The position numbers were made by a program, and so were the translations under genes. Below, one piece after another: positions 1,710-21,477 of a stretch of 64,000 nt of DNA. Position 1 is the stretch's first letter; each line of letters starts with the position of its first letter. Under the pieces are notes generated by a model that saw only the letters and a list, made by a program, of their open reading frames with translations, had not been told where the DNA came from and searched no databases. This DNA comes from Nocardioides sp. Root190. GTDB lineage: Bacteria; Actinomycetota; Actinomycetes; Propionibacteriales; Nocardioidaceae. Location: positions 62,001 to 126,000 of the forward strand of contig NZ_LMIA01000001.1 in assembly GCF_001428565.1 (NCBI RefSeq), in the 5' to 3' direction.

Positions 1710-1722
1710 TCACCCAAAATTG
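1710..1722 (-). promoter_or_regulatory. Polysaccharide-island box, copy 1
   Basis: The minus strand reads CAATTTTGGGTGA between the divergent genes at 770-1624 and 1762-3801. Similar A/T cores followed by GGG recur at 5497-5511, 13417-13432, 13452-13465, 19152-19166, 19179-19194 and 21461-21477, always in the intergenic region of polysaccharide genes. This suggests a binding site of a shared regulator. Confidence 0.4.
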
Positions 1723-1761
1723 ATGACCCGCCCATCCCCCCGCGGCGGGTTTGCTTCAGCC

Positions 1762-3801
1762 ATGCCGACGAGTGGGAATCCGGAGCGTGCCGCAGCCCGT
1801 GTGGCGCGGCGGTGCTGGGTGATCGCGCTCGTCGGGCTGCCGGTCTGGTGGCTCCTGGGTCTCGCGACGGTGGTGCCGCTGCTGCTCGCGGCCGTCCTCG
1901 CGTGGGACCTGTGGACCCGTCGCCGGATCATGCTGCCGGCGTACCTCGGCTGGTGGCTGCTGTTCCTGGTGTGGGTCCTCCTGGGGGCGATCACCCTGTG
2001 GCAGCAGGCCCCGGGCGCGGTGGACGACGGCGGCAGCGGTCGCGCTCTCGTCTTCGGCTACCGCTTCGGGTGGTACGTCGCCTGCACGATCGTCCTGGTG
2101 TGGCTGGTCAACACGACGCCACGGCAGCTCCCGGACCAGGTCGTGCGCCGGGTGATCGCGGTGGTGTTCGTCGTCGCGGTCACCGGAGGCCTGCTCGGGA
2201 TCCTGGCCCCTGACTTCGCCTTCACGACCCTGGCGGAGCGGGTCCTGCCCGGCGGCCTGCGCAGCAACGGGTTCGTGGCCACGCTGGTGTCCGCGGAGGC
2301 CTCCGACGTGCAGCACGTGCTCGGGCATCCCGAGCCCCGTCCGAAGGCACCGTTCCCGTTCACGAACACGTGGGGCAGCGTCATCTCGCTGACCCTGGTC
2401 TTCTTCCTCGCCATGCTGCGCGAGGCCACCCCGCGCCAGCGGTGGCTCGCGGCGCCGATCCTCGCCGCCGCTGCCGTCCCGGTCGTCGCGAGCCTCAACC
2501 GTGGACTGTGGCTCGCCCTCGCCGCGGGCGCCCTCGGCGTGCTCGTGCTGATGGCCCTGCACCGACGTGCCGGGGCACTGATCGGTCTCATCGTCGCGCT
2601 GCTGGTGGCCGGCGTCCTGCTCACCGGAACGCCCCTCGGCTCGACGATCGGCGAACGACTCGACAACCCGCACAGCAACGATCGCCGCTCGCAGCTCATG
2701 GTGGCGACGGTCGCCTCCATGACCGAGGGTTCCCCGGTCGTCGGGTTCGGCGGCACCCGCAACGTCGAGGGGACCTTCACCTCCATCGCCGGCGGCGCGA
2801 CCCCGGACTGCCCCGCCTGCGGCGTCCCCCCGCTCGGCACACAGGGCCAGCTCTGGCTGGTGCTGTTCACCCAGGGCTGGGTGGGAGCGGGCTTCTTCCT
2901 CGCGTTCTTCGCCCTCGGGCTCCGTCGCACCTTTCGCTGCCGGACGACCAACGAGACGGTGGCGACCTTCGTCCTCGCGATCTTCCTGCTCCAGCTCACG
3001 GTGTACGACACCCTCGGACTCCCGATGCTGGTGGTGATGGTGGCCCTGGGCCTGGTCGCCCGCGAGGGACCGCCGGGGTCCTACGCCCGCACGCCACGGC
3101 CCCGGGACCTGGTGACGGTCGCCGCGCTGAGCGGCATCGGTCTCACCTCCGGCGCGGTGATCACCACGCGGCACGCCGAGGACCTGCGCTCCAGCTCGGT
3201 GACGATGGTGCTCGAGCCGGCCGCGTCGCACCTGGACGCACGGGACCTCCCGACCTGGGGCGGGGCGCCGCGTGTCGACGTGACGACAGCAGAGCCGGCG
3301 ACCGTCGACACCGAGGCGGCGGTGCTCCGGTCCGCGCCGGTGGTGGCCCGCGCCGGCGCCCTGACGCACGTCCCGGTCCGGGAGCTCGACGACGCGATCA
3401 GCATCACCGCACCGCCGCACACGACGGTCCTGGTCCTGACCGTGACGCTGCCCGCGGTGCGGGATGCGGACGAGGTCGCCAGGACCCTCGCCGAGCAGTA
3501 CCTCGTCCAGCGTCGGGACCTGCTGACCGCCCTGCGTGACGAGCTCAAGGGCCGCTTGGCGGCCGAGCTCGCCAGGACCGACCGCAACGACCCGGCCTGG
3601 GCCGGCACCCGCGCCTACCTCCGCACGGCCATCGACCGCCTGGCCTCACGTCCCGTGGCGGCCGGCGAGGTGCTGCGCACCAGCCCGGTCGTCGACGCGA
3701 CGCAGGGACCGATGATCGGTCTGGCCAGCGGCGCCGGCTGCGGCATCCTGGCCGGACTGACGCTGGTCCGGCTGCGGCGCGGAAGGGCCCGGTCGCGATG
3801 A
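1762..3801 (+). CDS. O-antigen ligase/Wzy-type polymerase fused to a Wzz-like domain
   Basis: A 679-residue integral membrane protein. Residues 1 to about 430 contain roughly ten or more hydrophobic helices. A central stretch holds the family-typical SLNRGLWLALAAG helix, followed by a large extracytoplasmic loop rich in Gly and Pro with GFGGTRNVEG, as in O-antigen ligase/polymerase proteins. From about residue 450 a second unit begins: a helix, a soluble segment of about 175 residues with DADEVARTLAEQYLVQRRD, and a final helix (residues 653-671). That two-helix hairpin resembles the Wzz chain-length family. It probably polymerises lipid-linked repeat units outside the membrane. The start at 1762 is uncertain (1723 is an alternative) because neither has a clear ribosome site. 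It overlaps the next gene by ATGA. Confidence 0.75.
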   Translation: MPTSGNPERAAARVARRCWVIALVGLPVWWLLGLATVVPLLLAAVLAWDLWTRRRIMLPAYLGWWLLFLVWVLLGAITLWQQAPGAVDDGGSGRALVFGYRFGWYVACTIVLVWLVNTTPRQLPDQVVRRVIAVVFVVAVTGGLLGILAPDFAFTTLAERVLPGGLRSNGFVATLVSAEASDVQHVLGHPEPRPKAPFPFTNTWGSVISLTLVFFLAMLREATPRQRWLAAPILAAAAVPVVASLNRGLWLALAAGALGVLVLMALHRRAGALIGLIVALLVAGVLLTGTPLGSTIGERLDNPHSNDRRSQLMVATVASMTEGSPVVGFGGTRNVEGTFTSIAGGATPDCPACGVPPLGTQGQLWLVLFTQGWVGAGFFLAFFALGLRRTFRCRTTNETVATFVLAIFLLQLTVYDTLGLPMLVVMVALGLVAREGPPGSYARTPRPRDLVTVAALSGIGLTSGAVITTRHAEDLRSSSVTMVLEPAASHLDARDLPTWGGAPRVDVTTAEPATVDTEAAVLRSAPVVARAGALTHVPVRELDDAISITAPPHTTVLVLTVTLPAVRDADEVARTLAEQYLVQRRDLLTALRDELKGRLAAELARTDRNDPAWAGTRAYLRTAIDRLASRPVAAGEVLRTSPVVDATQGPMIGLASGAGCGILAGLTLVRLRRGRARSR

Positions 3802-4550
3802 GCGGCCACGCACCCTCCAGCGCACCACCGCTGCGGGACATCTGGACCCGGCTGGCCGTCGACCCGTTGGCCGACCCGGTGGCCCTCGTGCTGTCCCGGC
3901 ACCGGGTGGTCACCCCCAACCGCGTGACGACGGTGTCCGGCCTGCTCGGCGTCGCCGCGATCGCCTGCCTCGCGACGGGGCACCTGGCGGCGGGCGGCCT
4001 GCTGTCCCTGCTCCGGTTCTTCGCCGACTGCGTCGACGGCAAGGTCGCCCGCGCCCAGGGCAGTGGCAGCGCCCGCGGTGCCCTGCTCGACGTGGCCACC
4101 GACGTCGTCTGTGTCGTCGGGGCGTACGCCGCCCTGACGGCATGGGCCGTCACCGAGGGCCACCTCGACCCCCTGTGGGCGGGCGCGCTCATGGCGGTCC
4201 TCGGCTGGTACGGCTGGGCCCTGGCCCACCGCAAGCACCTGGCCGCCCTCGCCGGTGTGGGGGACGGCAGCTCACGACTGGTCGACCAGGAGGGATCGGG
4301 CCCCTGGGGTGCGTGGCTCGGGTTGTGCCGGCGCCTCCACATGCGGCCCGTGCCGTGGGCGGTGGAGGTGGAGACGCTGGTGCTCGGGCTCCTTCCTCTG
4401 CTCGGGCCCGGCTTCGCCGTACCCGGACTCCACCTCGCACTCCTCTTCTACGGCGGCGCGACGGTGGTCAACCTCGCCCGGATGGCGCGGATCGCAGCGG
4501 CCCTCGACGCGCGCTCCGTCACCTCGACCCCGACCCGGCTGCTGCCATGA
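3798..4550 (+). CDS. CDP-alcohol phosphatidyltransferase family protein
   Basis: A 250-residue membrane enzyme that should transfer a phospho-alcohol group from a CDP-activated donor. The full family signature is present: DG-x2-AR-x8-G-x3-D-x3-D, seen as DGKVAR, then eight residues, then GALLDVATD. Several hydrophobic helices follow. Most relatives make phospholipids, but this one lies inside a polysaccharide operon, between the polymerase and a glycosyltransferase, with 4-base overlaps on both sides. It may therefore build a phospho-polyol or phospho-inositol carrier or decoration of the polymer. That role is inferred from position only; the substrate cannot be read from the sequence. Confidence 0.85.
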   Translation: MSGHAPSSAPPLRDIWTRLAVDPLADPVALVLSRHRVVTPNRVTTVSGLLGVAAIACLATGHLAAGGLLSLLRFFADCVDGKVARAQGSGSARGALLDVATDVVCVVGAYAALTAWAVTEGHLDPLWAGALMAVLGWYGWALAHRKHLAALAGVGDGSSRLVDQEGSGPWGAWLGLCRRLHMRPVPWAVEVETLVLGLLPLLGPGFAVPGLHLALLFYGGATVVNLARMARIAAALDARSVTSTPTRLLP

Positions 4551-5455
4551 CCCGCCTGCCCACCGTCGACGTGGTGATCGCCACCCACGACCGTCCCGAG
4601 ATGGTGCGGGAGGCGATCGCTGCCGTCCTCGACCAGGACTACGAGGGCCCGGTGCGCTGCCTGGTGGTGCACGACCGGACGACGCCCGACGCGGACCTCA
4701 ACCTTTCCGCCCCCGGGCGCGAGGTCAGGGTGCTGGGCAACGACCGCTCCCCCGGTCTGGCGGGTGCCCGCAACACGGGGATCCTCGCGGGCGACAGCGA
4801 GCTGGTCGCCTTCTGCGACGACGACGACGTGTGGCTCCCGGGGAAGCTGCGCCGTCAGGTCGCAGAGCTGGTCCGCGGCGGGCCGCCGACGTGCGTGACC
4901 GGGATCGAGGTCGTGTACGACGGCACCAGCACCCCCCGTGTCCCCGCGCCCGCCGACCTCGAGCTCCCCACCCTCGTGCGGCGCCGGGTGATGGAGGCCC
5001 ACCCGTCCAGCGTCGTGGTGCGGCGCACCGATCTGCTCGATGTGATCGGCCTGGTCGACGAACAGATCCCGGGCTCCTACGGCGAGGACTTCGACTGGAT
5101 GCTCCGGGCCGCGGCCGCGGGCGGCTTCCACCTGGTCGCCGCCCCGCTGGTCCGGGTGCGCTGGGGTGGATCGCAGTTCTCCCGCAAGTGGCGCACGATC
5201 GTCGAGGCGATCGACTACGGCCTCGCGAAGCACCCGGCCTTCAGCGCCGACCGGCACGCCCATGCCCGACTGCTCGGTCGACGCGCGTTCGCCCTGGCCG
5301 CCCTGCGCGACCGGGAAGCACTGCCCACGCTCGCCCGGACCATCCGGACCCGTCCCCTCGAACCCCGCTCCTACCTCGCACTGGCGATCCTGCTGCGGTT
5401 GACCACCGCCGAGCGTCTGCTCGACATCGCCCACCGCCGGGGTCACGGCATCTGA
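4547..5455 (+). CDS. Glycosyltransferase family 2
   Basis: A 302-residue cytoplasmic or membrane-associated glycosyltransferase. The N-terminus has the GT-A fold start VDVVIATHDRPEMVREAI. The nucleotide-sugar metal-binding motif is an extended acidic run in AFCDDDDVWLPGKL, and GSYGEDFDWMLRAA is the usual acceptor-side motif. The start at 4547 overlaps the preceding stop (ATGA), which indicates translational coupling in a three-gene unit with the polymerase and the CDP-alcohol transferase. It likely adds one sugar of the repeat unit. No membrane helix is evident. The sugar specificity is unknown. Confidence 0.9.
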   Translation: MTRLPTVDVVIATHDRPEMVREAIAAVLDQDYEGPVRCLVVHDRTTPDADLNLSAPGREVRVLGNDRSPGLAGARNTGILAGDSELVAFCDDDDVWLPGKLRRQVAELVRGGPPTCVTGIEVVYDGTSTPRVPAPADLELPTLVRRRVMEAHPSSVVVRRTDLLDVIGLVDEQIPGSYGEDFDWMLRAAAAGGFHLVAAPLVRVRWGGSQFSRKWRTIVEAIDYGLAKHPAFSADRHAHARLLGRRAFALAALRDREALPTLARTIRTRPLEPRSYLALAILLRLTTAERLLDIAHRRGHGI

Positions 5456-5478: not shown

Positions 5479-5511
5479 ACCTCATTTCGAGGCCTACCTC
5501 ATTTGGGGTAG
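5479..5511 (+). promoter_or_regulatory. Polysaccharide-island box, copy 2, with direct repeat
   Basis: ACCTCATTT occurs twice 16 bases apart (5479-5487 and 5495-5503). The second copy extends to CCTCATTTGGGGTAG. It lies about 100 bases upstream of the secreted glycosidase start at 5611 and belongs to the same set as the boxes at 13417, 19152 and 21461. A 16-base spacing places both copies on nearly the same face of the helix, fitting a dimeric or cooperative activator. Confidence 0.4.
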
Positions 5512-5610: not shown

Positions 5611-7059
5611 GTGCTGCGAGCATGCATGAGATGGACAGGCCGCCCCGCGGTCCTGCTCGGACTGGTACTCGGAGGCCTGGCGGCAGTTCCGCCGACCGTC
5701 TCCGCGGCACCCACCGCGATCGTCGGACCGGTCGGGAGCTTCGAGTCCCATGTCGACGGCTTCAAGGGGGTCGGCAAGACCCGGCTCGGACGGTCCAGCC
5801 TCGGGATCGGACGCAACGGCTCGCGCGCCATGTCGGTGCGGACCCTCGCCAACGGCCCGGCCATCGCCACCAACCAGTGGCCGCTGGGAGCCGCCCACTC
5901 CGCCGGCACGACCTACACCGTTCGCGCGTGGGTCCGGGTCAACCAGAAGCGCAGGGTCGCGATGCGGGTCAGCGAGGTGTCCCGGGGACGCGTGGTCCGT
6001 ACCGCCCTCACCCGGCCCGTGCTGAAGGCGCGGACCTGGACCCCCCTGAACCTCAAGGTCACCTCGGCCGCCTCCGGATCGACGCTGACGCTGAAGTTCC
6101 AGGCCGGGATGCGTACGACGGACCGCTACTTCGTCGACGACCTGCGGATCACCGCACCGGTCAAGGCCCCCGTCGACCAGCCGTCGGGTGACCCCGCCGG
6201 CGGCATGCTGACCAACAAGTGCAGCCACACCGTTCGCGGCATCCCCTCCTGCGGGACCTACGTGGGCGCGGCGCACGGCTCCAACACCGAGCCCAGCACC
6301 TTCGAGGGCAACCTCGGCGGCCAGCTCGGCGTCCGACGCACCTACTTCACCGCGACCGGCGTCGCCAAGGCGGTCTCGACCGCTCGTGCCGACCTGGCCG
6401 CGGGGCGACTCCCCTGGATCAGCTTCAAGCTGCCCCACAGCTGGGCGGACATGGTGGCCGGCAAGGGGGACGCGTGGGCCCGCGACCTCGCCAAGCAGCT
6501 CTCGGCGCTGGACGGACCCGTGTGGGTGGCCTTCCATCACGAGCCCGAGGGTGACGGCGACATCCAGCTGTGGCGCCGGATGCAGGAGCGGCTCGCTCCC
6601 ATCGTGCGGTCCGCCGCACCCAACGTCGCCTTCACCGTGGTGATGACCGGCTGGAACCAGTTCTACGGAGAGGCGAAGTACAGCCTCGCGGAGATCTGGC
6701 CCCGCGGAGTCGAGATCGACGTCGCCGGCTTCGACATCTACCAGAACTACGGCGTGGTCAAGGACGGCAAGACCACGACGAAGTGGACCGACTTCGAGCA
6801 GTACTTCCGGATGATCTCTACCTGGGCGCGCACTGCCGGTGTCGACTGGGCGCTCGGCGAGACCGGAGTCACCCAGGCGGCGATCGCGGCGCGACCCACC
6901 TCGATCGCGGACACCGTGAAGCTCATGCAGAGCTACGGCGGGATCGGCTACAGCTACTTCGACACGACGCTCAACAGCGTCGCGGACTGGAGCCTGTCGA
7001 CCACGGCCAAGGTCAACGCGTTCAAGTCGGCGCTGAGCAGCTCGCCGAAGCTGGACTGA
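5611..7059 (+). CDS. Secreted glycoside hydrolase (GH26-like) with N-terminal carbohydrate-binding-like domain
   Basis: A 482-residue exported enzyme. The GTG start at 5611 is chosen because AAGGAG ends 5 bases before it. Residues 1-35 form a signal peptide (AVLLGLVLGGLAAVPP, cleavage near VSAAP). Residues about 40-190 are a beta-sandwich domain with a final FVDDLRI strand, typical of carbohydrate-binding modules. The C-terminal barrel has two candidate catalytic glutamates: Glu311 in FHHEPEGD and Glu417 in LGETG, the arrangement found in clan GH-A families such as GH26. It probably trims the polymer made by the surrounding cluster. It carries its own upstream regulatory boxes and ends convergent with the kinase-fold gene. 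Confidence 0.8.
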   Translation: MLRACMRWTGRPAVLLGLVLGGLAAVPPTVSAAPTAIVGPVGSFESHVDGFKGVGKTRLGRSSLGIGRNGSRAMSVRTLANGPAIATNQWPLGAAHSAGTTYTVRAWVRVNQKRRVAMRVSEVSRGRVVRTALTRPVLKARTWTPLNLKVTSAASGSTLTLKFQAGMRTTDRYFVDDLRITAPVKAPVDQPSGDPAGGMLTNKCSHTVRGIPSCGTYVGAAHGSNTEPSTFEGNLGGQLGVRRTYFTATGVAKAVSTARADLAAGRLPWISFKLPHSWADMVAGKGDAWARDLAKQLSALDGPVWVAFHHEPEGDGDIQLWRRMQERLAPIVRSAAPNVAFTVVMTGWNQFYGEAKYSLAEIWPRGVEIDVAGFDIYQNYGVVKDGKTTTKWTDFEQYFRMISTWARTAGVDWALGETGVTQAAIAARPTSIADTVKLMQSYGGIGYSYFDTTLNSVADWSLSTTAKVNAFKSALSSSPKLD

Positions 7060-7086: not shown

Positions 7087-8259
7087 TCACGGGAAGCACA
7101 TCCGCTCGAGCGCGATCAGGACCTGACGCGCACGTGGTGCGATGTGCTTCCCGCCGGGCACCTCGATCAGGCACAGGTAGCGCACCAGGATCGCGACCAG
7201 GTAGAGCCGGGCCGTCAGCTCCCGGTCGCCCTCCGGCCACGACGTGCTCCGGAGCGCCAGCTCGATCCCGCGCAGCACACTCTCGGCCCCGGCCGGGGTG
7301 CCGGCCGCGACGACGTTGACGACGTGGTGGATCGCGTCGAAACCGACCGGCACACCGGTCTCGAACCGCTCCCAGTCCCACAGGAGCGTGCGGTCCCCGT
7401 CGGCGGCCATGTTCCACGGCGTCCAGTCGCCGTGCCAGGCCCCCCACTCCAGGGGACGACCGCCCGCTCCTCGCGCCACCTCCTCCATGGCCCGGGCCAG
7501 TCGGCCGCGGGAGACCGGATCGGTGAGCCCGCCCACCTGCTCCCACTGGCGCGCCCACCACGACGACTCCGTCAGCGGCCCCGGCTCCTGGCGGAAGAGG
7601 GAGGCCAGCTCGGCCATGGCCTCGAGCGGCGGTTCCCACGTACGACGCCGGGCGGACGGCCAGCCATGCGGGCGCAACGGCTCGGTGAGGATCACCGGAC
7701 GGCCCTGCCACCTGGTCCGGGCCAGCAGCGCGGGTGGGACGACCCGCTCCAGGTGGCGGGCTCCGACCGCGGCCAGGGCTCGCCCCTCGGCCGAGACATC
7801 GGCGCTGGTGTGGGCGGACCACCCGATCTTGCCGAAGGCCAGGCAACGACCGTCCATGTCGAACACCTGCAGCACCGGCTTGCGGTTGACCCGCGCGGTG
7901 CCGATGCTGATCGTGAAGCACACCGGCTTCCCGAGGACCTCCCCGATGTGCTCGGCCAGCCCCGGCTCCCCGCCACGCACCTCCACCCGTTGCCGCATCA
8001 GTGCCGGCGCCGCCCGGACGGCAACGCTGGCGGCGTTGCGGGCCATCGAGCTCCACCAGCTGGTCGCACTGCTGGTCCGGCGCAGCGACGCGCCGGCGGC
8101 GGCGCGGGGATCGACGGGGACGAGAACGGTCGCACCCGCGCCGCGCCCGAGGACGGCGTACCGCGCGCGGACGGGCCGCCCGTCGGCAGCCGCGTCCGCA
8201 GGAACCACGTCCGCGCCCGGCCACAGCTCGGCTGCCGTCGACAGGAGCTCAGAGGTCAC
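7087..8259 (-). CDS. Aminoglycoside-phosphotransferase/kinase-fold protein
   Basis: A 390-residue protein with the choline kinase/APH fold. The catalytic loop is WHGDWTPWN near residue 276 (catalytic Asp and metal-binding Asn). The metal-binding acidic position lies in LLWDWERFE about 20 residues later. The N-terminal part is less conserved. The GTG start at 8259 follows the preceding methyltransferase gene by 9 bases, so it is the last gene of a five-gene minus-strand operon (13337 to 7087) of polysaccharide assembly and modification. A small-molecule or sugar kinase role is more likely than drug resistance in this context, but the substrate is unknown. Confidence 0.75.
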   Translation of the reverse strand: MTSELLSTAAELWPGADVVPADAAADGRPVRARYAVLGRGAGATVLVPVDPRAAAGASLRRTSSATSWWSSMARNAASVAVRAAPALMRQRVEVRGGEPGLAEHIGEVLGKPVCFTISIGTARVNRKPVLQVFDMDGRCLAFGKIGWSAHTSADVSAEGRALAAVGARHLERVVPPALLARTRWQGRPVILTEPLRPHGWPSARRRTWEPPLEAMAELASLFRQEPGPLTESSWWARQWEQVGGLTDPVSRGRLARAMEEVARGAGGRPLEWGAWHGDWTPWNMAADGDRTLLWDWERFETGVPVGFDAIHHVVNVVAAGTPAGAESVLRGIELALRSTSWPEGDRELTARLYLVAILVRYLCLIEVPGGKHIAPRARQVLIALERMCFP

Positions 8260-8268
8260 GGGAGGACC

Positions 8269-9510
8269 TCACGACGTACGGATGCAGGCGAAGAGGTGGC
8301 GTCCGTAGTTGTCCTCGTACGGCGCCACGGCGTCCTGGTCGGGACCGAGGTCGATCACCTCGTCGAAGGTCGTGTGCTGGCGCAGGAAGGCCTCGACGTG
8401 GCCGGTGTCCCAGCCACCGAGCGAGGTGCGGAACCAACGCTCGTGCTCCTGCCCCGTGTCGAGGAAGAGGACCCGCCGGGTCGAGGCGTCCAGCCGGCGG
8501 GCGAGCTCCACCGCACTGCAGCCACCGCGTCCGAGCACGAAGTGGTGGAGCAGGCTGAAGCAGGACACGACATCCCACCGACGCGACGTCGTGGCCAGGA
8601 TCTGCTCGGCGTCGCCGATCCGGATCCGGGTCGGGTCGAGGTCGTAGACGACACGACCGAGCTCCGCGCCCAGCGGGTCCCGCTCGAGGCCCTCCGCGGC
8701 GTAGCCCCGGATCCCCATCTGGTCGACGAACCAGCCGTAGCAGCTGGCGACGTCGAGGTAGGACGTACCGGGCGCGTCGAGGCCCCGATCGGCGAGGAAG
8801 GACGTCATCAGGTCGAGGCGGTCCGTGCACCGTCGCACCGTCGGCCACTGCGCCTCGAGCTCCGGCGAGGACACCGGCTGGTAGAGCTCACGCCCACCGT
8901 CCAGCCACGACATCCGGCGGAGCAGCTGCTGCAGCGGGGTGTCCACGTGTCCCCGGCGCACCCGGACGCGCACCGTGGAGACGCCCTCACGCACCAGTTG
9001 CGCGACACGGTGGTGGCCGTCCAGCAGCTGGTGGCAGTCGGAGTCGGCGATCGGCACGGTCAGCACCGGCATGCCCGGCGCGGAGTGGTGGTCGCCGGTG
9101 ACCGCTGGCCCGCGGCCGCCGGTGGCGGCGTACTCGATGAACTGTCGTGCCTGGGCGAGGATCCCGGCGTGGTCGGCGGCCGCGAAGTAGCGGCCGGTGT
9201 GGCGGATGCACGCCATCGCCATCCGTCCGTAGGACGACTCGAGGATGTCCTGGTCGCTGAGTGGACCGAGGTCGGCGCGGTCGAGCAGCTCGACGTGCGG
9301 ACTGTCGGCGATCTGGCGCGAGGGCCACAGCGGGTCGCCGTAGACCGTGGCGAACTGGGCGGCCGTCATGCCGTTCTGGCCGCCGAGGAGGAGCCGGTCG
9401 AGAGGCACCTCACGCGTCCCGGCGTGCCATCGGGTGACCCGGGCGAGTCGATGGCGGGTGGGCGCGGTGAGCACCGCTCCCTGGCCTCGTTGCGGGTGGG
9501 CGTCGATCAT
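8269..9510 (-). CDS. ParB/Srx-like nucleotide-binding domain plus SAM-dependent methyltransferase
   Basis: A 413-residue two-part protein. Near residue 160, LLDGHHRVAQLVREG is the GxHR-type motif of the ParB/sulfiredoxin-like fold, which binds nucleotides. From about residue 245 a class I methyltransferase begins (SYLDVASCYGWFVDQM as motif I, then VVSCFSLLHHF as the later core motif). The ATG at 9510 has GGAAGGA upstream and overlaps the sulfotransferase stop by 4 bases. In this operon it may phosphorylate and/or methylate a glycan building block. The domain combination is suggestive; the reaction is unknown. Confidence 0.7.
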   Translation of the reverse strand: MIDAHPQRGQGAVLTAPTRHRLARVTRWHAGTREVPLDRLLLGGQNGMTAAQFATVYGDPLWPSRQIADSPHVELLDRADLGPLSDQDILESSYGRMAMACIRHTGRYFAAADHAGILAQARQFIEYAATGGRGPAVTGDHHSAPGMPVLTVPIADSDCHQLLDGHHRVAQLVREGVSTVRVRVRRGHVDTPLQQLLRRMSWLDGGRELYQPVSSPELEAQWPTVRRCTDRLDLMTSFLADRGLDAPGTSYLDVASCYGWFVDQMGIRGYAAEGLERDPLGAELGRVVYDLDPTRIRIGDAEQILATTSRRWDVVSCFSLLHHFVLGRGGCSAVELARRLDASTRRVLFLDTGQEHERWFRTSLGGWDTGHVEAFLRQHTTFDEVIDLGPDQDAVAPYEDNYGRHLFACIRTS

Positions 9511-10382
9511 CGTGATGGTTCCTTCCTCCAGCTGGGGGTGTCGCCGAGCAGCAACGCCAGCGCGGCGTCGTGCGGCTCGAAGTGGTCCTGCAGGTGGTTC
9601 CTGAGGTCGTCGGGCAGCGGTGCCCCGGGGCGTTCGTTCCAGCGACCGACCTCCGCCGGCCGGTGGGACGGGAGCCCGAGGCTCCGCTGCAGATCGAGGT
9701 ACGTCGTCACCGGGTCCGCGAACAGCCGGTTCGCATCCACGACATGGACCCGGTCGCGGCCGAGCTCGGCGACGAAGCGCGCGATCTGCTCGGCGTACTG
9801 GCTGCGCTGGAGGTAGCAGTGGTGGCGGTGGCCGAAGCTGGGCACGCCACTGTCGGCGGCGACCGCGGCGCCCAGCCCCCTGGTGCGTTCGGCCTCCTGG
9901 GTGACGGCGTCGGCGAAGGACAGCGTCTCGAAGCCGCGGGCGAACTCGTGGCGGTAGGAGGAGTAGGCGCGCTCGACGGGGTCCCGGACCATCACGACCA
10001 CCTGGCAGCCGGGCAGGTCGCGAGCGATGCGAGCGGCCGCGAGCGGGTGGAAGAGGTAGTAGCCACTGCACTCGAAGGCCAGCGTCGCGCCGCGACGCAG
10101 ACGGATGGGGAAGTGGGCGCGGTACCAACGGGTCCCGCGGGAGTAGTCGTCGTCGAAGTAGCCCGTGCCCTTGTTGATCGTCGGACGACGCAGCCTCGGG
10201 TGCTCACTGAGCAGCCGGAACAACGTGGTCGTGCCCGCTCGCTGCGCCCCGACGACGATGATCTCCGGTGGCGGTCGCAGGTCCGCAGTGAGGAATCCCC
10301 AGCCCAGCAAGGCTTTGCGGGCTCCGTTGAGCACGGGTCGCGGCAACCGCTGACGAAGCCGTCCGGCGAGTGCGCGGATCAC
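9507..10382 (-). CDS. PAPS-dependent sulfotransferase
   Basis: A 291-residue sulfotransferase. The 5'-phosphosulfate-binding loop is VVGAQRAGTTTLFRLL near residue 45. The 3'-phosphate-binding segment is VVMVRDPVERAYSSYRHEF near residue 133. Both are canonical for enzymes that move sulfate from PAPS to a hydroxyl. The length fits the family. The GTG start at 10382 overlaps the flippase stop (GTGA), and its own stop overlaps the methyltransferase start, so it is translationally coupled between flippase and methyltransferase. It most likely sulfates a sugar or lipid-linked intermediate of the exopolysaccharide. The acceptor is inferred from context. Confidence 0.85.
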   Translation of the reverse strand: MIRALAGRLRQRLPRPVLNGARKALLGWGFLTADLRPPPEIIVVGAQRAGTTTLFRLLSEHPRLRRPTINKGTGYFDDDYSRGTRWYRAHFPIRLRRGATLAFECSGYYLFHPLAAARIARDLPGCQVVVMVRDPVERAYSSYRHEFARGFETLSFADAVTQEAERTRGLGAAVAADSGVPSFGHRHHCYLQRSQYAEQIARFVAELGRDRVHVVDANRLFADPVTTYLDLQRSLGLPSHRPAEVGRWNERPGAPLPDDLRNHLQDHFEPHDAALALLLGDTPSWRKEPSR

Positions 10383-13337: not shown

Positions 13338-13416
13338 GCCCACCTCCATGTCCGGGCCGCCGAAGGCCACATCATGGAGCGCGGTCGGGTGCTGTGAGGG
13401 TGCCGCCGACGGATAC

Positions 13417-13465
13417 CCCCAATTTGTGGGACGTTGTGGCGCCCCGAGCAACCTGCCCAATATCG
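13417..13465. promoter_or_regulatory. Polysaccharide-island boxes, copies 3 and 4 (inverted pair)
   Basis: The divergent promoter region between the Wzz operon (start 13337) and the giant surface protein (start 13526) holds CCCCAATTTGTGGGAC on the plus strand (13417-13432) and CGATATTGGGCAGG on the minus strand (13452-13465). The paired, oppositely oriented arrangement is repeated at 19152-19194. Confidence 0.45.
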
Positions 13466-13525
13466 GTCATGCCGCAGGTCGCCCGGCACGGGCACGATCG
13501 CAGGGCCCTCGGAAATCCGGGGGCC

Positions 13526-16500
13526 ATGCGAGTGCGGGGGCGTGAACAGATGGCTGCAGCAAGATCCCGACGGAGTCCCCATGCACGGTTGGGAAGGCGA
13601 GGTGCCTGGGCGGCGATCCCCATCCTCGTCGTCGCCTCCTTGCTGTCCGTCCCCGTACTCGCGCCACCCGCGGCCTCGGCCCCGGGCGAGGTGAGCTTCG
13701 TCGGCGCTGCGAGCACCGCCGGCAACCGCACGAGCCACACGGTCCGGGTCCCGGCCGCCGTCGAGCCCGGTGACGTCCTGATGCTGGTCCTGTCGACGAA
13801 CTCGACGACGACGACCATCGGCACCGCGCCGGCAGGCTGGTCCCTGGCGGCCACCCGCGACGGCAACGGCATGCGGGGTCGACTCTGGACCCGCACCGCA
13901 GGTGCCACCGACGCGGACTCCGTCCTCACCGTCGCGACCAGCGCCGCCACGAAGTCCGTCATGAGTGTCGGCGCCTACCGCAGCACGGGGCAGGCACCGA
14001 CGATCACGGCCACCGCCGGTGGCTCTGACCTGAGCGGCACCTCCCACGCGACTCCCGCCACCACGGTGGCGGACGCCGGCTCCTGGTTGGTGAGCGTCTG
14101 GTCCGAGAAGTCGTCGACCGACCTGACCTGGACCCTGCCCGCCGCCGTGCAGCAACGCCAGGCCGCCGCCGCGACCGGGAGCGGGAAGGTCAGCGCGGTC
14201 TGGGGCGACTCAGCAGGCCCCGTCCCGACCGGAGCGAGGCCCGGCCTCGCCGCGACCACCAGCGCAGCTGCGTCACGGACGGTGACGTTCTCGGTGGTCG
14301 TCAGCCCCGGCGTGCTCGTCAACGCCGAGCCCGACGCCTCCTTCACCGCCAGCTGCGACGGTCTCGTCTGCTCGTACGACGCCTCGGGCTCCAGCGACCC
14401 CGACGGCGACGACCTCACCTACGCCTGGTCCTTCGGGGACGGGACGACAGGAGCCGGACGCACCGCCCAGCACACCTACTCCTCCGCAGGACAGCGCACG
14501 GTCACCCTCGACGTCAGTGACGGCCAGGACACGGACCAGGCGACCCGGCAGGTCAGTCCGACGCCGTCGACGACGGTCGGCAGCCTGACCCACGTGGGAT
14601 CGGCGAGCACCGCCGGCAACCGTCCGGCGCACTCGGTGACCGTCCCCAGCGCGGTGCTGCCCGGCGACCGACTCGTCCTCTTCCTCGTCACCAACACGAC
14701 GTCCGGAGTGCTGGCCGACGACCTCGCCGGCTGGACCCTGCTGGAGTCGAGGAACGGCAACGGCATCCGCGGCCGCGCCTGGACCCGCGCGGCCACGGCA
14801 GCGGACGCGGGTCGGACCGTCACGGTGACCAGCGACAGCTACATCAAGTCCGCCATGACCCTCACGGCCTACCGGAGCACCGGTCCTGCCGTGATCTCGG
14901 CGTCCGTGGTCGGAGGATCCGACTCGCCGGCGACCAACCACACCGCCCCGTCGGTCTCCGTTCTCAGCACGGGATCATGGGTGGTCAGCGCGTGGGGTGA
15001 GAAGTCGAGCACGGACACGACCTGGACGCTGCCCGGCTCTGCGACGCTGCGCGGCCAGGCGGCATCGACCGGCACCGGCAAGGTCAGCATGGCCGTCGGC
15101 GACTCGAACGCCGGCCTCCTGGTCGGCCCTGCGCCAGCACGCACTGCCACCACCAGCACCTCGGTGTCGCGGTCGATGCTCTTCTCGGTCGTCGTCGACC
15201 CCGGCATCGACGCCACGGCCAGCAACGAGGCCCCGGTGGCGGAGTTCTCCACCGGGTGCGCCGGGCTGACCTGCGAGTACGACGCGTCGCTGTCCTTCGA
15301 CCTCGACCACGACGACCTCACCTACCAGTGGACCTTCGGGGACGGGCAGACCGGGACCGGCGTGAACCCGGAGCACACCTACGCCACTCCGGGCATCCGC
15401 TCGGTCACCCTCACCGTCGGCGACGGCCACGGACACACGGACCAGGCGAGCGGCACCTCCGTCACGGTGCTGCCCAGCCCGCCGCCGGGCCACGCCCGTC
15501 TCGTGCCCGACGCGCCGCGGACCAACCAGCCGACGATCACCACGGGCGAGATCTGGGACATCGAGGTGGTCGGCAACCGGGTGTACGTCGCCGGGGGCTT
15601 CACCTCGATCCGCCAGCCCAACAACGGGGCCGTCGTCAACCAGTCCTTCCTCGCGGCGTACAACTGGAGCACGGGCCAGGTCGACACCCAGTTCCGTCCG
15701 GTCTTCACCGACGGCAGGGTCGATGCGGTCGAGGCCTCACCGGACGGGACGCGGCTCTACGTCGCGGGCAACTTCGGAGCCGTCAACGGTGTCAGCCGCA
15801 AGGCGATCGCCCGGCTGGATCCCGCAACGGGCGCGCCGATCGCGGCCTTCACGGCCAATGCCAACGGCAAGGCGAACGAGCTGGCCGTCACCAACTCCAC
15901 CGTCTATGCGGGCGGTCGCTTCACCACCATCAACAACGTGCCCCGCAGTGCGTTGGTGGCACTCGACGGCCTCACCGGTGCCGTCCGGACCGACTTCGTC
16001 AACAACATCACTGGCGGCATCGGCACCAACGGTGAGCTCGCGGTCCAACGGCTCAAGCTGACCCATGACGAGGGTCGACTCCTCGTCGTCCACACCGGGC
16101 GCCAGGTGAACGGTCAGGACCGCTACGGCATCGCGATCATCAACACCCGGACCAACCGGCTCACGGCATGGAAGTCCTCGCTGTGGACCGACAACCTCCA
16201 GTTCGTCGGGGGCATCCAGCGCATCTACGGCGGCGACATCGGTCCCGACGACTCCTACTTCGTCGTCACCAGCGGATCAGGCGGGGACCGGCCGCCGATC
16301 AACGACACGGTGATCGCCTTCAAGCTCGACGCCGACCCCGACGCGCAACCGCTCTGGATCTCGCGGCACTTCGACTCCGTCTACTCGGTCGCTGCGACCG
16401 AGTCCGGCATCTACATCGGCGGACACTTCCAGTGGGCCGAGTCCGCGACGGCGCCCGTTCCGTGGCCGGGGCTCGACGACGTCGGCTACGGCACCGGCCA

Positions 16501-19051
16501 GGGACTCTCGGCCTACGCCCTCGGCGATGCCGTCGTGAAGAGGTTCCACCTCGCTGCCCTGGACCCCACCGACGGCCACGCCCTCGAATGGTTCGCGCCG
16601 TCGAACTCCTACGAGGGCGACAAGCACATCGAGGCGACCCCCCGAGGCCTGTTCGTCGGCGGCGACGGCAACACCAAGGGCAGCTACAACGTCGGCCGCG
16701 TCGCCTTCTTCGACTTCACCAACGTGACCGCCCAGAACGGCACCCAGACCGAGATCACCTCCCCGATCGAGGGCAGGATCGAGCCGGTCGACGAGCAGTT
16801 CGAGATCACCGGAACCGCCACTGCGGCGACCGGCGTGCAGCGGGTCGAGATCGAGGTCATGGACCGCTCGTCGGGCCGCTACCTCGCCGACGACCTGACC
16901 ACATGGGGGTCGACCACCTCCAACACCATCAACGCGACCATCGATCCCGGCACCGGTGCCGCGCGGACCTGGCGTCTCCCCCTGCTCATGACGGCCAACC
17001 GCGAGCTGCTGGTGCGCGCCCGCGCGATCGCCGTGAACGGCACGGCCGACAGCACGAAGGCCGCCAAGAAGTTCGAGACGTTCGGCCTGTCCGACCAGCC
17101 ACCCGACACGAGCGTCAACGGTCCCGGCAGCCCGGTCAGTGCGCTGACGTTCACGGTGACCGGTTCGGCCACCGACGACTTCGGGGTCAACGGGATCTCC
17201 TTCACCCTGCGTGACAGCCAGAACCGCTACCTCCAGGACGACGGAACCGTCTCGGCCACCTACAACACCTTCCAGGTCGAGCCCGACGTGGTCGGCGGCA
17301 CCAGTACGACGTGGTCCCAGGAAGTCACCGTTCCCTACGAGGACGAGTGGTGGCTGCAGGCCAGGGCCTCCGACACGACCGGCCAGTCCGACCTGGACAC
17401 CGCGGACCGCCGCTGGATCGTCACCGAGAACGGTCAGCCACCGACGGTGTCGATCACCCAGCCGGCGCTGATGGTGCCCCCCACCTCGACGCAGACCGTC
17501 GTGGTCACTCCGGGCCAGCCGCTGACCTTCTCCGGGTCGGCGAACGACGACGAGGCGCTGAGCGAGGTGTGGATCACGCTGCGCAACAACTCGACCGGGG
17601 AACGTCTCGCATCCGACGGCTCCTGGGGCACCGGGGTGATCGCCGGGTCGTACCGGATCTCGCCGGTGAACCTGAACCAGACCAGCTACGGCTGGACCTA
17701 CACGACCCCGTTCGACCTCAGCCCCGGCACGTACAGCTTCACCGTCGGCGCCTCGGACCGGATCGGGCTCAGCACGTCGTCGAACAACCAGGGTCGACTG
17801 ACCCTCAACGCCCAGATCCCGGGCGACACCCCACCCAACGGGCTGCTCGACGTCACCGGCACCGTCAACGGCGGCCAGGTCCTCGCACTCGACCTCGCCG
17901 GTTCCGCCACCGACGACCGAGGGGTCGACCGCGTGGGCATCGCCGTGCTCCACCGTGACACCAGCCGCTACCTGCAACCCAACGGCACCCTGTCCGCGAC
18001 CTTCGCGACGATCGACGCCACCCTGGTGAGCCGCGGCGCCACCAGCACCCGGTGGAGCCTGTACGTGCCGCTGCCCACCCAGGGCGACTGGTCGGTCACG
18101 GCGTACGCGTTCGACACCGCAGGACAGCAGGACCCGTCGACCTCGGGGGCGACGGCGCGGTACCCGATCTACCCGGGCGACCAGCCCCCCGTGCTCAACG
18201 AGAGCCTGCTCAACCCCACCGAGGGCACGGTCTTCCCCGACGGCAAGATCTTCACCAGTGGGCGGGCCGAGGACGACCAGGCCATGTCGGAGGTGCAGGT
18301 CGCGGTCGTGAACGCCGCCGGCCAGTACATGAGCTCGTCGGGCACCTTCACCAGCACGAACGCCAGCTGGCGCACCGCGTTCCTCAACAGCCCCGGGACG
18401 CCCGGTTCCAACTTCTCGTACACGACACCGGTGATCCCGCCGGGCGCCTACACGGTCCGGGTCCGTGCGATCGACCAGCACGGCTTCATCAGCACCATCT
18501 ACGAACGGCACGCCAGCGTCACCCATCCGCCCAACGAGCCGCCCGTACCGTCCTTCACCTTCTCGTGCGCGGAGAACGTCTGCACCTACGACGCGCGGAC
18601 CTCGACCGACGAGGCGCCCGCGGCCCTCACCTACTCGTGGTCGTTCGGCAACGGCTCGGGCTCGGGGGCCGTGGTGACCCGGACCTACACCAGCGCAGCG
18701 ACCTACACCGTCACCCTCACCGCCCGCGACGAGTGGGGAGTCACCGCGGCCACCTCGCAGACCGTCACGATCGCGGTCCCGGCCGGCAACCAGGCCCCCG
18801 CGCCCGTGCTCAACCCACCTGCCTGCGCGAACCTCTCCTGCAACTTCTCCGCCGTCGGGTCGAGCGACCCGAACGCCGGCGACACGATCAGCTATCGGTG
18901 GGTGTGGGCCGACGGTACGGCGAGCTCGACGTCGACCTCGCCGAGCCACACCTTCCCGGCTGCCGGGACCTACCTGGTGGAGCTGACGGTGACGGACGGA
19001 TGGGGGACGGCCACCACGGTCAACCGGAGCGTGACCGTCGGCGGGCCCTGA
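13526..19051 (+). CDS. Giant secreted multidomain protein with PKD, propeller and Ig-like repeats
   Basis: About 1841 residues. A signal peptide ([19 protein letters not shown]) ends near residue 50 at AASA. Two copies of a beta-sandwich module follow, starting [14 protein letters not shown] and [14 protein letters not shown], each followed by a PKD domain ([11 protein letters not shown] near residue 300; [11 protein letters not shown] near residue 600). Residues about 660-1070 are a propeller-like region ([38 protein letters not shown]). Five Ig-like repeats with the core RYLxxDGT/S span about 1080-1665, and two more PKD domains close the protein. No sortase signal or terminal helix is seen. 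It is probably secreted or polymer-associated, acting in adhesion or matrix structure. The start is uncertain; 13550 is an alternative. Confidence 0.75.
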
Positions 19052-19151
19052 GCCACCGGACAACCTCTCAGAATCCGGCGATCGTCCACCAGAAATCCAG
19101 TCCGGGAGGAGATTCTTTACCCGAAAGGGTCCGAACGGTCAGGAATGACGG

Positions 19152-19194
19152 ACAATATTGGGTACGTTCGCAGGATTTCTACCCACAATTGCGC
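19152..19194. promoter_or_regulatory. Polysaccharide-island boxes, copies 5 and 6 (inverted pair)
   Basis: ACAATATTGGGTACG on the plus strand (19152-19166) and GCGCAATTGTGGGTAG on the minus strand (19179-19194) lie just upstream of the histidine kinase start at 19215. The pair resembles that at 13417-13465 and suggests autoregulation of the two-component genes. Confidence 0.45.
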
Positions 19195-19214
19195 TAGTCA
19201 CAGATACTGACCAG

Positions 19215-20753
19215 ATGACCGGGACCCCCAAGGCCCCTCGGTCCAGCCGCTCCCCCAGGGCGGTTCCTCGGGTGGAAACAGGACGGCCGAACAGCACCAA
19301 GGCCCCTGCCATGGAGCGCTCGTCGCTGTGGTGGGCCTTCGGCCTCACCCTGCTCATCCTCCACCCCTACGCCGTCGTGTACGTCCTGATGGGAACCGAC
19401 CAGCGACGCCTCGCCCTGGTGGGCGAGCTCTGCACCCTGGTCGCCGACCTCACGATCGTGTGCGCGGCGCTGTTGCTCACCCTCGACTCCCGCTTGGGCG
19501 GCAGCGCCCTGCGCGCCAGCATGGCGACCTGCCTGGTCCTGGTCGCCGTCCAGGACGCACCGGTGGCGATCCTCGCGATGGTCGACCCCGAGGTCGGTGC
19601 GCACTCCTACCGCCTGCACATCGGCCATCTGGCGGCCGTGCTGTTCGGCCTGGTGGTGCTCATCGCGGGACGTCGCGCGGTGCTCCCTCCGCGGAGCAGT
19701 CCGCTGGTCCTCGGGTTCGCGCTCGGGACTGTCCTGCTGGGCATGAGCATCGCCCTGTCCGCGACCGTGCCCGGCACCCTCGAGCTCGACGTCGACCGAG
19801 CAGGCGATCTCGTCGTCGTGGTGGTCGCCGCCGTCGGCGTGTGTGCGCTCTTCGTCCAGCTGCGCCGCTCCGGCCTGCCGCTCTGGGTCGCGAACCGTCT
19901 CGGCGTCGCTGTGCTGGCGATCTTCGGCGCCCGCCTCTACGCCACCGTCACCGACGCGACAGAGCCCCAGTTGCCTGCGGTCGCGGGCATCGTCGTCTTC
20001 AGCGCACTCTGTGCCACGACGGCCGCGGCGCTCCTGCGCCGCACCTTCGCCGAGTCGGCGACGCTCTCGCGTGGGTACGCCGACCGCGCGGCCGAAGCAG
20101 AGGCGACCGTCCGTCACGACCAGGAGCTCGCGCACGAGGTCCGCGCCGCAACGGCCGGCGTCGTCGCCGGAGCCCGCCTGCTCGCGAGCGGCCGGATTCC
20201 CGAAGGACCACGGCGTGACGCCATCGAGCACATGGTGGACGTCGAGGCCGCCCGTCTGGGCCGCAGCCTCGGCCCCTTGGCGGCCCCCTCCGGACCGGTC
20301 GCCATCGACGACGTCATCGGCCCTCTCGTCGTGGCACAGCGCGCGCAGGGCCACGAGGTCTCGTGGGAACCGTCCGGTCACGCCGTGGTCGTGCGGCGCG
20401 ACGACCTGGCCGAGGTCGTGAACGTGCTGCTCAACAACGCCGCCCGGCACGGGGGGTCCCGGGACACCCGGGTCGCCGCGACCAACGTCGAGGACCACGT
20501 CGAGATCCGGGTGTCCGACCGCGGGCCGGGTGTCGCCACCGAGGTACGCGACCACCTGTTCCAGTGGGGCGCGCGCGGCCCCGACTCCCCCGGCGAGGGC
20601 ATCGGGCTGCAGCGCGCCCACCGGCTGGCGCAGGAACACGGCGGCCACCTCCGCATGGAGACGTTGAACGAGCAGGGTGCCGCCTTCGTGTTCGCGCTCC
20701 GGGCGGCGGATGCCGGAGAGCTCGAGAAGAGCCTGCAGGGCTGGCCCGGATGA
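19215..20753 (+). CDS. Membrane sensor histidine kinase
   Basis: About 512 residues. After a short polar N-terminus, seven or eight hydrophobic helices run from residue about 34 (LWWAFGLTLLILHPYAVVYV) to about 280. The kinase part has the candidate phospho-accepting His307 in ELAHEVRAATAG, an N box VVNVLLNNAARHG, a G1 box SDRGPGV and a G2 box GEGIGLQRA. The stimulus is unknown because the sensor is wholly membrane-embedded. It overlaps the response regulator start by ATGA, so they are a cognate pair. The start is uncertain: 19158 would lie inside the regulatory boxes, so 19215 is preferred, with 19311 as an alternative. It probably controls polysaccharide genes. Confidence 0.8.
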   Translation: MTGTPKAPRSSRSPRAVPRVETGRPNSTKAPAMERSSLWWAFGLTLLILHPYAVVYVLMGTDQRRLALVGELCTLVADLTIVCAALLLTLDSRLGGSALRASMATCLVLVAVQDAPVAILAMVDPEVGAHSYRLHIGHLAAVLFGLVVLIAGRRAVLPPRSSPLVLGFALGTVLLGMSIALSATVPGTLELDVDRAGDLVVVVVAAVGVCALFVQLRRSGLPLWVANRLGVAVLAIFGARLYATVTDATEPQLPAVAGIVVFSALCATTAAALLRRTFAESATLSRGYADRAAEAEATVRHDQELAHEVRAATAGVVAGARLLASGRIPEGPRRDAIEHMVDVEAARLGRSLGPLAAPSGPVAIDDVIGPLVVAQRAQGHEVSWEPSGHAVVVRRDDLAEVVNVLLNNAARHGGSRDTRVAATNVEDHVEIRVSDRGPGVATEVRDHLFQWGARGPDSPGEGIGLQRAHRLAQEHGGHLRMETLNEQGAAFVFALRAADAGELEKSLQGWPG

Positions 20754-21436
20754 TCGGCGCCGCCCAGGGCTCGACGCGCGTCACGATCGTCGACGACCAC
20801 GCGCTCTTCGCGGAGTCGCTCGCCATCACGCTGGAGGCGGAGGGCTACGCCGTACGCCGGATCGACCTGACCCTCGACCACACCTCGCTCGCGAGCGTCC
20901 TGGCTGCGGTCGTCCGCACCTCCCCGCGGGTGGTCCTCCTCGACCTCGACCTCGGCCGGATCGGCGACGGCACGCGCCTCGTCGACCCGATCACCGCCAC
21001 GGGCGCGTCGGTCATCGTCATGACAGGGAGCTCCGACCGGGTGCGGTGGGGTGAGTGCCTCCGGCGCGGTGCGAAGACGGTACTGACGAAGACCTGTCCG
21101 CTCGACCACGTCGTGACCAGGGTGCGACGGGCCGGGGACGGGCTGCCCCTGATGCCGCCGGAGGAACGGACCCTGCTGATCGAGATGGCGATTGCCGAGG
21201 ACCGCGAGCTCCGCGCCATCCGGACCCGGCTCGAACGACTGACCAGGCGCGAGATGGAGATCCTCGGCGACCTGATGCACGGGCACCCGGTCAAGGAGAT
21301 CGCGCGGACCTGCGTGGTCTCGGAAGCCACCGTCCGCACCCAGGTGAAGTCCATCCTGGCGAAGCTCGAGACCAGCTCGCAGATCGCCGCGGTCGGCGCG
21401 GCCTATCAGGTCGGCTGGCGCCCTCCGGGCGACTGA
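20750..21436 (+). CDS. NarL/LuxR-type response regulator
   Basis: A 228-residue response regulator. The receiver retains the acidic pair Asp15-Asp16 (VTIVDDHALFAES), the phospho-acceptor Asp65 (VVLLDLDLG), the switch Thr (VIVMTGSS) and the conserved Lys (TVLTK). A LuxR helix-turn-helix follows (RLTRREMEILGDLMHG, then VVSEATVRTQVKSILAKL). It is the intact member of a three-paralogue set; those at 94-792 and 36958-37677 have lost key receiver residues. It is coupled to the histidine kinase by an ATGA overlap. The likely targets are the repeated CAATTTGTGGG-like boxes in this island, an inference. Confidence 0.9.
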   Translation: MIGAAQGSTRVTIVDDHALFAESLAITLEAEGYAVRRIDLTLDHTSLASVLAAVVRTSPRVVLLDLDLGRIGDGTRLVDPITATGASVIVMTGSSDRVRWGECLRRGAKTVLTKTCPLDHVVTRVRRAGDGLPLMPPEERTLLIEMAIAEDRELRAIRTRLERLTRREMEILGDLMHGHPVKEIARTCVVSEATVRTQVKSILAKLETSSQIAAVGAAYQVGWRPPGD

Positions 21437-21460
21437 GATCACTCAGACCCCCGGATCTTT

Positions 21461-21477
21461 GCACCATTTGAGGCATG
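21461..21477 (+). promoter_or_regulatory. Polysaccharide-island box, copy 7
   Basis: CACCATTTGAGGCATG lies upstream of the Alg14-like gene at 21547. A candidate -10 element TAGGGT begins at about 21498. The match to the box set is weaker than at 13417 or 19179, but ATTTG followed by a G-rich part is kept. Confidence 0.35.

Follow-up and report, generated by a model that had tools for sequence, protein, structure and literature searches.

A recurrent 16-bp palindromic box across an exopolysaccharide island of Nocardioides sp. Root190, a probable operator of island-encoded NarL/FixJ-type regulators

Introduction

In E. coli, NarL operators consist of a pair of inverted 7-mers spaced by 2 bp, and single NarL sites are active at -44.5, -67.5 and -77.5 (PMC7419079). 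In Streptomyces, the BldM operator of NarL/FixJ-type regulators is the 16-bp palindrome TCACcCgnncGgGTGA, and WhiI has a phosphorylation pocket from which the conserved lysine and one member of the acidic pair are missing (PMC4125116). On exopolysaccharide promoters, RcsB acts as a response regulator together with the auxiliary regulator RcsA at the RcsAB box of capsule operons (PMC5829831). In this study, we analysed a stretch of 64,000 nucleotides (nt) from Nocardioides sp. Root190 (contig NZ_LMIA01000001.1, positions 62,001 to 126,000), hereafter the window, and found that a 16-bp palindromic box recurs across its polysaccharide island. The best explanation, to which we assign a probability of roughly 0.78, is that these boxes would be the operator of an island-encoded NarL/FixJ-type regulator, most likely the response regulator (RR) at 20750-21436 and/or its receiver-degenerate partner LuxR1 (94-792).

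The nearest published operator that we found is that of BldM. Our boxes are likewise actinobacterial 16-bp palindromes with similar outer bases, and LuxR1 resembles WhiI in a pocket without the lysine and one acidic residue (PMC4125116). In contrast, the core of the box is A/T and not gnnc as in TCACcCgnncGgGTGA. BldM and WhiI are both orphan regulators, whereas the RR of the window has a canonical pocket and its gene directly follows a kinase gene; BldM and WhiI act in sporulation, the presumed target here is a polysaccharide island, and a heterodimer is hypothetical here. Because the core and the orphan status differ, we did not file the boxes under the BldM-WhiI system. The boxes share the 7-2-7 layout of the NarL operators, whose active positions are comparable to the class I and class II positions that we propose below (PMC7419079). 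The regulator pair is also reminiscent of RcsB/RcsA, in that a response regulator and a candidate auxiliary regulator are found at exopolysaccharide promoters. The RcsAB system, however, belongs to another phylum and has another box sequence, and no phosphorelay was identified in the island. An RcsA-type function of LuxR1 is a hypothesis by analogy. The NarL half-site consensus is TACYYMT, and the half-site of the box is near it, although A rather than T stands at half-position 7, the targets are different and there is no link to nitrate. VpsT of Vibrio and CsgD are LuxR-type regulators with atypical receivers that act on matrix genes; we know of no relation of either to a kinase-RR module. 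Among the papers listed on exopolysaccharide regulators of Nocardioides and other actinobacteria, none named this system in its title or the start of its abstract. We regard the regulon as new and the kind of operator and regulator (NarL/FixJ, 7-2-7) as already known.

Results

An earlier note on this DNA had quoted seven similar strings from intergenic regions of the cluster. We checked them against the letters of the window, set the register of the 16-mers and read some of them on the minus strand; all seven were present, which confirmed the observation (Table 1). The box exists as described there, but its extent does not hold, because the note gave an 11-mer and the palindrome covers 16 bp in a 7-2-7 layout. 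Its remark that A/T runs are rare was also correct, as runs of at least six letters occur three times in the 64 kb and two of the three are within boxes. The boxes are copies of a single palindromic motif with a consensus of about TVCCCMAWWTKGGGBA, in which two 7-mers (about TVCCCMA) are inverted around a 2-bp A/T centre. The half-site frequencies, obtained from 223 distinct intergenic sites with a score of at least 13 from 157 loci, were T 0.89; C 0.53, A 0.26 and G 0.21; C 0.82; and C 0.93 at positions 1 to 4, and C 0.74; A 0.53 and C 0.30; A 0.85; and A 0.48 and T 0.46 at positions 5 to 8. In the A/T core, half-position 7 is A in 0.85 and half-position 8 is A or T in 0.94 of the half-sites.

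The palindromic matrix was seeded with ten sites upstream of kinase homologues in other genomes and refined on 20 stretches from 19 other genomes, giving 108 sites, with the window excluded. With this matrix from relatives only, the seven sites ranked 1 to 6 and 8 in the 64-kb window, and rank 7 (27246, score 9.9) lies inside an open reading frame (ORF). All 8 window offsets scoring above 10 were intergenic. Among 30 column-permuted matrices, four gave at least 8 offsets above 10, of which just 0-2 were intergenic; in one, all 5 offsets were intergenic, and the remaining 25 gave no more than 2 intergenic offsets. A look-alike at 5478, beside the box at 5495, scored 4.9 and was not counted.

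For a wider scan, 79 loci were found via LuxR1 in named genomes, of which 68 are on contigs outside the training set, though some of these are from species close to the training species and one (L197) is another contig of a training genome. These 68 loci contained 108 sites scoring at least 14, 105 of them intergenic, against 0 in the complement control, so that the box is enriched over control DNA. In 24 of the 68, the 700 bp ahead of the LuxR1-like gene contained such a box. In the 20 training stretches, the IUPAC pattern matched 106 times at up to two mismatches and twice in the control, an enrichment that is not independent because the pattern was derived from sites like these; the scan of the 68 loci and the counts in 147 genomes given below are more independent tests. 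Intergenic DNA is expected to be richer in A/T than coding DNA, and chance A/T-rich words might be suspected on this basis. That explanation has a negligible probability and is refuted by the 108 sites against none in the control, by exact orthologous conservation and by the recurrent -10 spacing.

In the source genome (5.0 Mb), five sites matched TVMCMMAWWTKKGKBA with up to one mismatch, against one in the control; four of the five are within about 16 kb at the island, one just left of the window. At two mismatches the count (70 against 50 in the control) had no discriminating power, in part because TACCCATATTGGATCA recurs at 9 places among the matches listed. A genome search with a 14-mer at up to two mismatches returned the known exact copy and five two-mismatch sites and was uninformative. 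The nine copies of TACCCATATTGGATCA are identical and scattered (e.g., C8:283836 and C9:89351), and this 16-mer is probably a mobile element.

The island is syntenic in eight genomes (G055, G134, G145, G002, G139, G041, G080 and G085), and their boxes stand in the corresponding gaps, ahead of the Wzy, GH5, Wzz/PKD, kinase and Alg14 genes. Box 1, which is common to the divergent Wzy-like and LamG-LuxR promoters, has a counterpart in each of the seven relatives for which a Wzy promoter was listed. The gap of box 2 is boxed in six relatives; before the GH5 gene of G002 there was no box above the threshold, and the 20 kb stretch of G085 ends within the island, so that its Wzy and GH5 gaps are outside it. 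The 16-mer of box 3a is identical in G055, G134, G139, G085 and G080, and that of box 3b in G134, G055, G139, G085, G002 and G080. In the gap of box 4a, all eight relatives have copies scoring 14.4-20.9, followed by CATAAT, and the gap of box 5 is boxed in all eight. Gene starts were taken from our own codon-usage caller and some are off; two orthologous boxes of G080 fall in an ORF because the caller over-extended it. In the island of G145 the giant PKD gene is absent from its usual gap, where both boxes are kept. More distant genomes have a module in the order LuxR1, boxes, kinase, RR and sugar transferase, mostly without other island genes adjoining, and the boxes flank the LuxR1 and kinase-RR genes even when these stand apart from most of the other island genes.

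We measured the spacing from box to -10-like hexamer in 223 box-to-gene stretches from two locus sets, including 11 loci on training contigs; spacing had not been used in training. TANNNT peaked at 39 nt (23/223) and 22 nt (15/223), against a mean of 1.3 per position and a highest count of 8 in 300 rotated sets. A looser hexamer pattern gave the same two peaks (12 and 11; rotation maximum 10). Before the kinase, 11 of 28 stretches had a -10-like hexamer at 38 nt, and before the Alg14 gene a hexamer at 22 or 23 nt was found in all nine stretches including the window. The Wzy promoter of the window has the less convincing hexamers TTTGCT/TTGCTT at 23/24 nt. With the first letter of the hexamer set at -12, the boxes would be centred near -59.5 and -42.5, which we predict to be class I and class II activator positions, respectively.

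Repression, with the regulator occluding RNA polymerase, would be suggested by the -42 placement, which would overlap the -35 region, and by the weak box 4b, which ends 6 nt ahead of the presumed -10 of the kinase. On the other hand, the dominant placement of about -59.5 is upstream of the core promoter, where sites are usual for activators, and no -35 was evident at these promoters by inspection. We therefore regard repressor sites as unlikely and an activator operator as the better description.

Box counts were compared among 147 genomes at up to one mismatch. Genomes with the RR had a mean of 7.5 boxes (n=105) and those without it 2.2 (n=42; Mann-Whitney p=3.9e-14); when the source genome and the 19 genomes used for training were left out, the means were 7.3 (n=86) and 2.2 (n=41; p=1.3e-12). 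Control counts were alike (1.24 with and 1.19 without the RR). The RR was scored as present when the best match was below 1e-50, and best matches were all either below 1e-50 or above 1e-34.

That box counts track the island's RR also bears on the possibility that a global regulator encoded elsewhere, such as a BldM orthologue, binds the boxes. The BldM site of Streptomyces, TCACcCgnncGgGTGA, is likewise palindromic over 16 bp and resembles the box in its outer bases (PMC4125116), and boxes occur beside many non-polysaccharide genes in N. gilvus (G061). However, the core is A/T in our boxes and g/c in the BldM site, and four of the five best sites in the source genome are at the island. A global regulator is accordingly a rather improbable owner of the boxes.

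The embedded kinase was absent at eight mapped loci (G061, G023, G126, G142, G100, G028, G049 and G039), whose genomes showed only weak kinase matches (E 5e-11 to 2e-7). Seven of these genomes have 7-27 boxes; G039 has none, and its RR is without the acceptor Asp. The pattern indicates that the embedded kinase is dispensable for conservation of the box. Close but lone kinase paralogues are present at G084 (C1:693909) and at a second locus of G134 (C1:2552456), without RR or LuxR1 in the stretch; no site at up to two mismatches was found in 40 kb at these loci, which contain weak matrix sites of 9.4-10.9.

The RR has an N-terminal receiver (Response_reg, 48.2 bits; cut-off 30.2) and a C-terminal GerE helix-turn-helix (47.9 bits; cut-off 23.5), the architecture of the NarL/FixJ type. 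Its phosphorylation pocket is canonical (D15, D16, D65, T92 and K114). The alignment had 41 RR rows, namely 32 module RRs and 9 others, with the gene 36877-37677 counted twice, and 31 of the 32 module RRs have the full pocket.

LuxR1 matched GerE with 44.8 bits and no Pfam receiver. Its predicted fold (pLDDT, the predicted local distance difference test, 89.8) is a receiver with a helix-turn-helix, and on this model LuxR1 is of the NarL/FixJ type as well. The fold matches in the PDB include VraR, ChrA, LiaR, RcsB and chains of VpsT; the match of LuxR1 to CsgD was weak and far below the cut-off. Full-length template-modelling scores of about 0.45 and root-mean-square deviations of about 8-12 are in our view due to domain orientation. 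The pocket of LuxR1 is degenerate, as the receiver Lys is lost in 25 of 25 sequences and the first acidic position is A, S or C in all 23 aligned there; the Asp column is ambiguous, since a shift of two residues in the alignment would bring D or E in many. In the window, the RR and LuxR1 have the recognition-helix stretch SEATVRTQVKS in common.

Table 1. Island genes, boxes and -10-like hexamers, with positions in the window.
Feature	Position	Strand	Sequence or basis	Remark
LuxR1, NarL-type regulator with degenerate receiver	94..792	-	Pfam GerE
LamG-like protein	770..1624	-	Laminin_G_1 below curated cut-off	first gene of LuxR1 operon
Wzy/O-antigen-ligase-like protein	1762..3801	+	family match (Wzy_C) below curated cut-off
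CDP-alcohol phosphatidyltransferase	3798..4550	+	family match
Family 2 glycosyltransferase	4547..5455	+	Glycos_transf_2 above cut-off
CBM4_9 + GH5-like protein	5611..7059	+	family match
Conserved island protein	7087..8259	-	no family above cut-off	syntenic in relatives
Methyltransferase-like protein	8269..9504	-	match below cut-off
Sulfotransferase	9507..10382	-	family match
Wzx-like flippase	10379..11890	-	Polysacc_synt_3 just above cut-off
Presumed Wzz-like protein	11877..13337	-	no family above cut-off
Giant PKD-domain protein	13526..19051	+	family match
Histidine kinase	19215..20753	+	HATPase_c	predicted membrane location
RR, canonical receiver + GerE response regulator	20750..21436	+	Response_reg, GerE above cut-offs	favoured candidate binder
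Alg14/PssD-like glycosyltransferase subunit	21547..21996	+	Alg14 above cut-off, PssD just below
Alg13/PssE-like glycosyltransferase subunit	21990..22496	+	Glyco_tran_28_C above cut-off, PssE below
Initiating polyprenyl glycosylphosphotransferase	22493..23923	+	TIGR03025 above cut-off
Box 1	1711..1726		CACCCAAAATTGATGA	matrix 17.5, rank 4
Box 2	5495..5510		TACCTCATTTGGGGTA	matrix 18.5, rank 2; upstream of CBM/GH5-like gene
Box 3a	13416..13431		CCCCCAATTTGTGGGA	matrix 17.9, rank 3; towards Wzz-like operon
Box 3b	13454..13469		TGCCCAATATCGGTCA	matrix 18.9, rank 1; towards giant PKD protein
Box 4a	19149..19164		CGGACAATATTGGGTA	matrix 10.9, rank 6; kinase/regulator promoter
Box 4b (weak)	19181..19196		ACCCACAATTGCGCTA	matrix 8.1, rank 8; between box 4a and start
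Box 5	21460..21475		TGCACCATTTGAGGCA	matrix 12.4, rank 5; upstream of PssD/Alg14-PssE/Alg13-like genes
-10-like, LamG/LuxR1 operon	1666..1671	-	TACGCT	39 nt from box 1
-10-like, Wzz-like operon	13371..13376	-	CATGAT	39 nt from box 3a
-10-like, PKD gene	13493..13498	+	CACGAT	23 nt from box 3b
-10-like, kinase	19203..19208	+	GATACT	38 nt from box 4a
-10-like, Alg14 gene	21498..21503	+	TAGGGT	22 nt from box 5

The island spans about 94 to 23923 and combines a polysaccharide pathway with the kinase and the two NarL-type regulators. With an initiating transferase, a flippase, a polymerase (Wzy_C below threshold) and glycosyltransferases, it is an exopolysaccharide island of the Wzx/Wzy type. The protein at 11877..13337 is one that we take to be Wzz-like from its position, not from a family match.

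Discussion

The earlier note had proposed a self-contained exopolysaccharide regulon in which the kinase/regulator pair has boxes in its own promoter. Boxes 4a and 4b are indeed present there, both weak, and the copies of relatives in this gap are stronger. The regulon with autoregulation is supported by the enrichment, the orthologous conservation, the -10 spacing and the co-occurrence with the RR, and it is refined in three respects, as the kinase is dispensable for the boxes, LuxR1 is also a plausible binder and the reach goes past the left edge of the window.

From these sequence comparisons we infer binding by the RR and/or LuxR1, a mainly activating effect and phosphorylation by the kinase as the trigger. 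A phosphorylated RR dimer would occupy the two inverted half-sites, with the kinase 19215-20753 as the phosphodonor in this genome, and LuxR1 would probably bind this operator too, in the role of partner or modulator. Placed at about -59.5 (class I) or -42.5 (class II), the dimer would recruit RNA polymerase to weak promoters. The operons for the polymerase, export, decoration, glycosyltransferases and giant protein would be switched on in this way, together with the operons of the regulators themselves.

LuxR1 might instead be the main owner of the operator, controlled by a ligand or by its abundance in the manner of VpsT, CsgD or WhiI, with the RR feeding in a signal or competing. Its operon reads from the box at 1711 with a hexamer 39 nt away, its recognition-helix stretch is that of the RR in the window, and its fold matches include the regulators named above, from VraR to VpsT. 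A LuxR1-like gene accompanies the RR in 28 of 29 modules picked regardless of LuxR1 (9/9 in the syntenic set, four of them with LuxR1 outside the island stretch, 10/10 and 9/10), and kinase-less loci retain LuxR1 and boxes. LuxR1 was also present at 12 of 13 LuxR1-guided loci, a biased sample chosen around LuxR1 matches. Against this, G049 and G118 have the RR and 9 and 12 boxes, respectively, with no LuxR1-like gene in the examined stretch, a strongly diverged copy elsewhere being possible. Moreover, the canonical pocket is kept in 31 of 32 module RRs, which favours a working phosphorylation switch. We consider main ownership by LuxR1 a possible but doubtful reading, and the RR the favoured candidate binder.

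A strict heterodimer signature was sought in the 223 distinct boxes and was not found. The boxes are slightly more symmetric than randomly paired half-sites (position 2, z 4.1), a symmetry that does not favour an obligate heterodimer; as the helices of RR and LuxR1 are near-identical, one may still occur.

Several observations weigh against an operator of the island-encoded regulators. The kinase boxes are the weakest copies in the window. No -10-like hexamer was found at 20-27 or 36-42 nt from box 2, nor did a hexamer scan of the Wzy and GH5 promoters of relatives give a recurrent -10, and the two preferred spacings are 17 nt apart, which is not a whole number of helical turns. RR-like paralogues pass the 1e-50 cut, so that the RR family and not strict orthology was tested, and the RR marks the whole module, so that any other co-inherited regulator would correlate too. 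Ten of the 105 RR-bearing genomes have no more than two boxes (none in G079 and G039), and 7 of the 42 RR-less genomes have at least four (8 in G043 and 6 in G091). In N. gilvus, boxes are also located beside genes for enolase, serine hydroxymethyltransferase, sulfite/nitrite reductase, a Mur ligase and others, and a box is inside an ORF in 2 of 14 stretches. In the RR-less G131, the five boxes equal the control count of five. No close homologue of the RR or LuxR1 is present in G043 and G091, each of which has a single site in the control.

Beyond the window, a strong box, TCACCCATTTTGGGGG, is located 2.6 kb to its left (G000:C1:59345; L120:17345-17360), and the gene downstream of it is related to the PKD giant. 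Elsewhere in the source genome, the box at C10:852539 precedes the gene of an RCC1-repeat protein and that at C7:56684 has a CAP-domain gene on one side and a peptidase M13 gene on the other. N. gilvus has 27 boxes against 1 in the control. Among its 17 listed sites, two adjoin a sugar transferase gene and two a GH6 gene, and others are next to the genes of a CAP protein, a nucleotidyl transferase and a DUF4012 protein. The regulon of N. gilvus may be wider, or some of its sites may be inert. CAP-domain proteins adjoin boxes in both species (L217 in N. gilvus and L123 in the source genome).

For a polysaccharide system that occurs across Nocardioides and close relatives, these results provide a testable operator, the geometry of its promoters and two candidate regulators. 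The matrix can be used for regulon annotation in the genus, and the pair of a canonical and a degenerate regulator lends itself to the study of response-regulator heterodimers. As a tentative extension, the canonical RR and its phosphorylation-dead paralogue might share the operator as a genus-wide matrix-polysaccharide switch in which dimer composition sets the output, possibly with the Glu-for-Asp paralogue 36877-37677 as a third member. If true, this shared-operator switch would have arisen on a polysaccharide island as an actinobacterial equivalent of RcsAB and BldM-WhiI.

The third NarL-type paralogue, 36877-37677 (+), is 50% identical to the RR and has the pattern GHETK, with Glu in the column of the acceptor Asp and Gly-His replacing the acidic pair; this form may be active constitutively. 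The matrix scan of the window showed no box next to it. Its counterparts with DHETK are near the islands of G041 and G080. Just before it are two consecutive genes for GAF-ANTAR proteins, 35165-35968 and 36014-36742 (+). Further towards the island, two very large GerE regulators adjoin each other (26268-28763 and 28869-31367, -), one with a NACHT match (LAL-like), and an MMPL transporter gene, 32067-34232, adjoins them.

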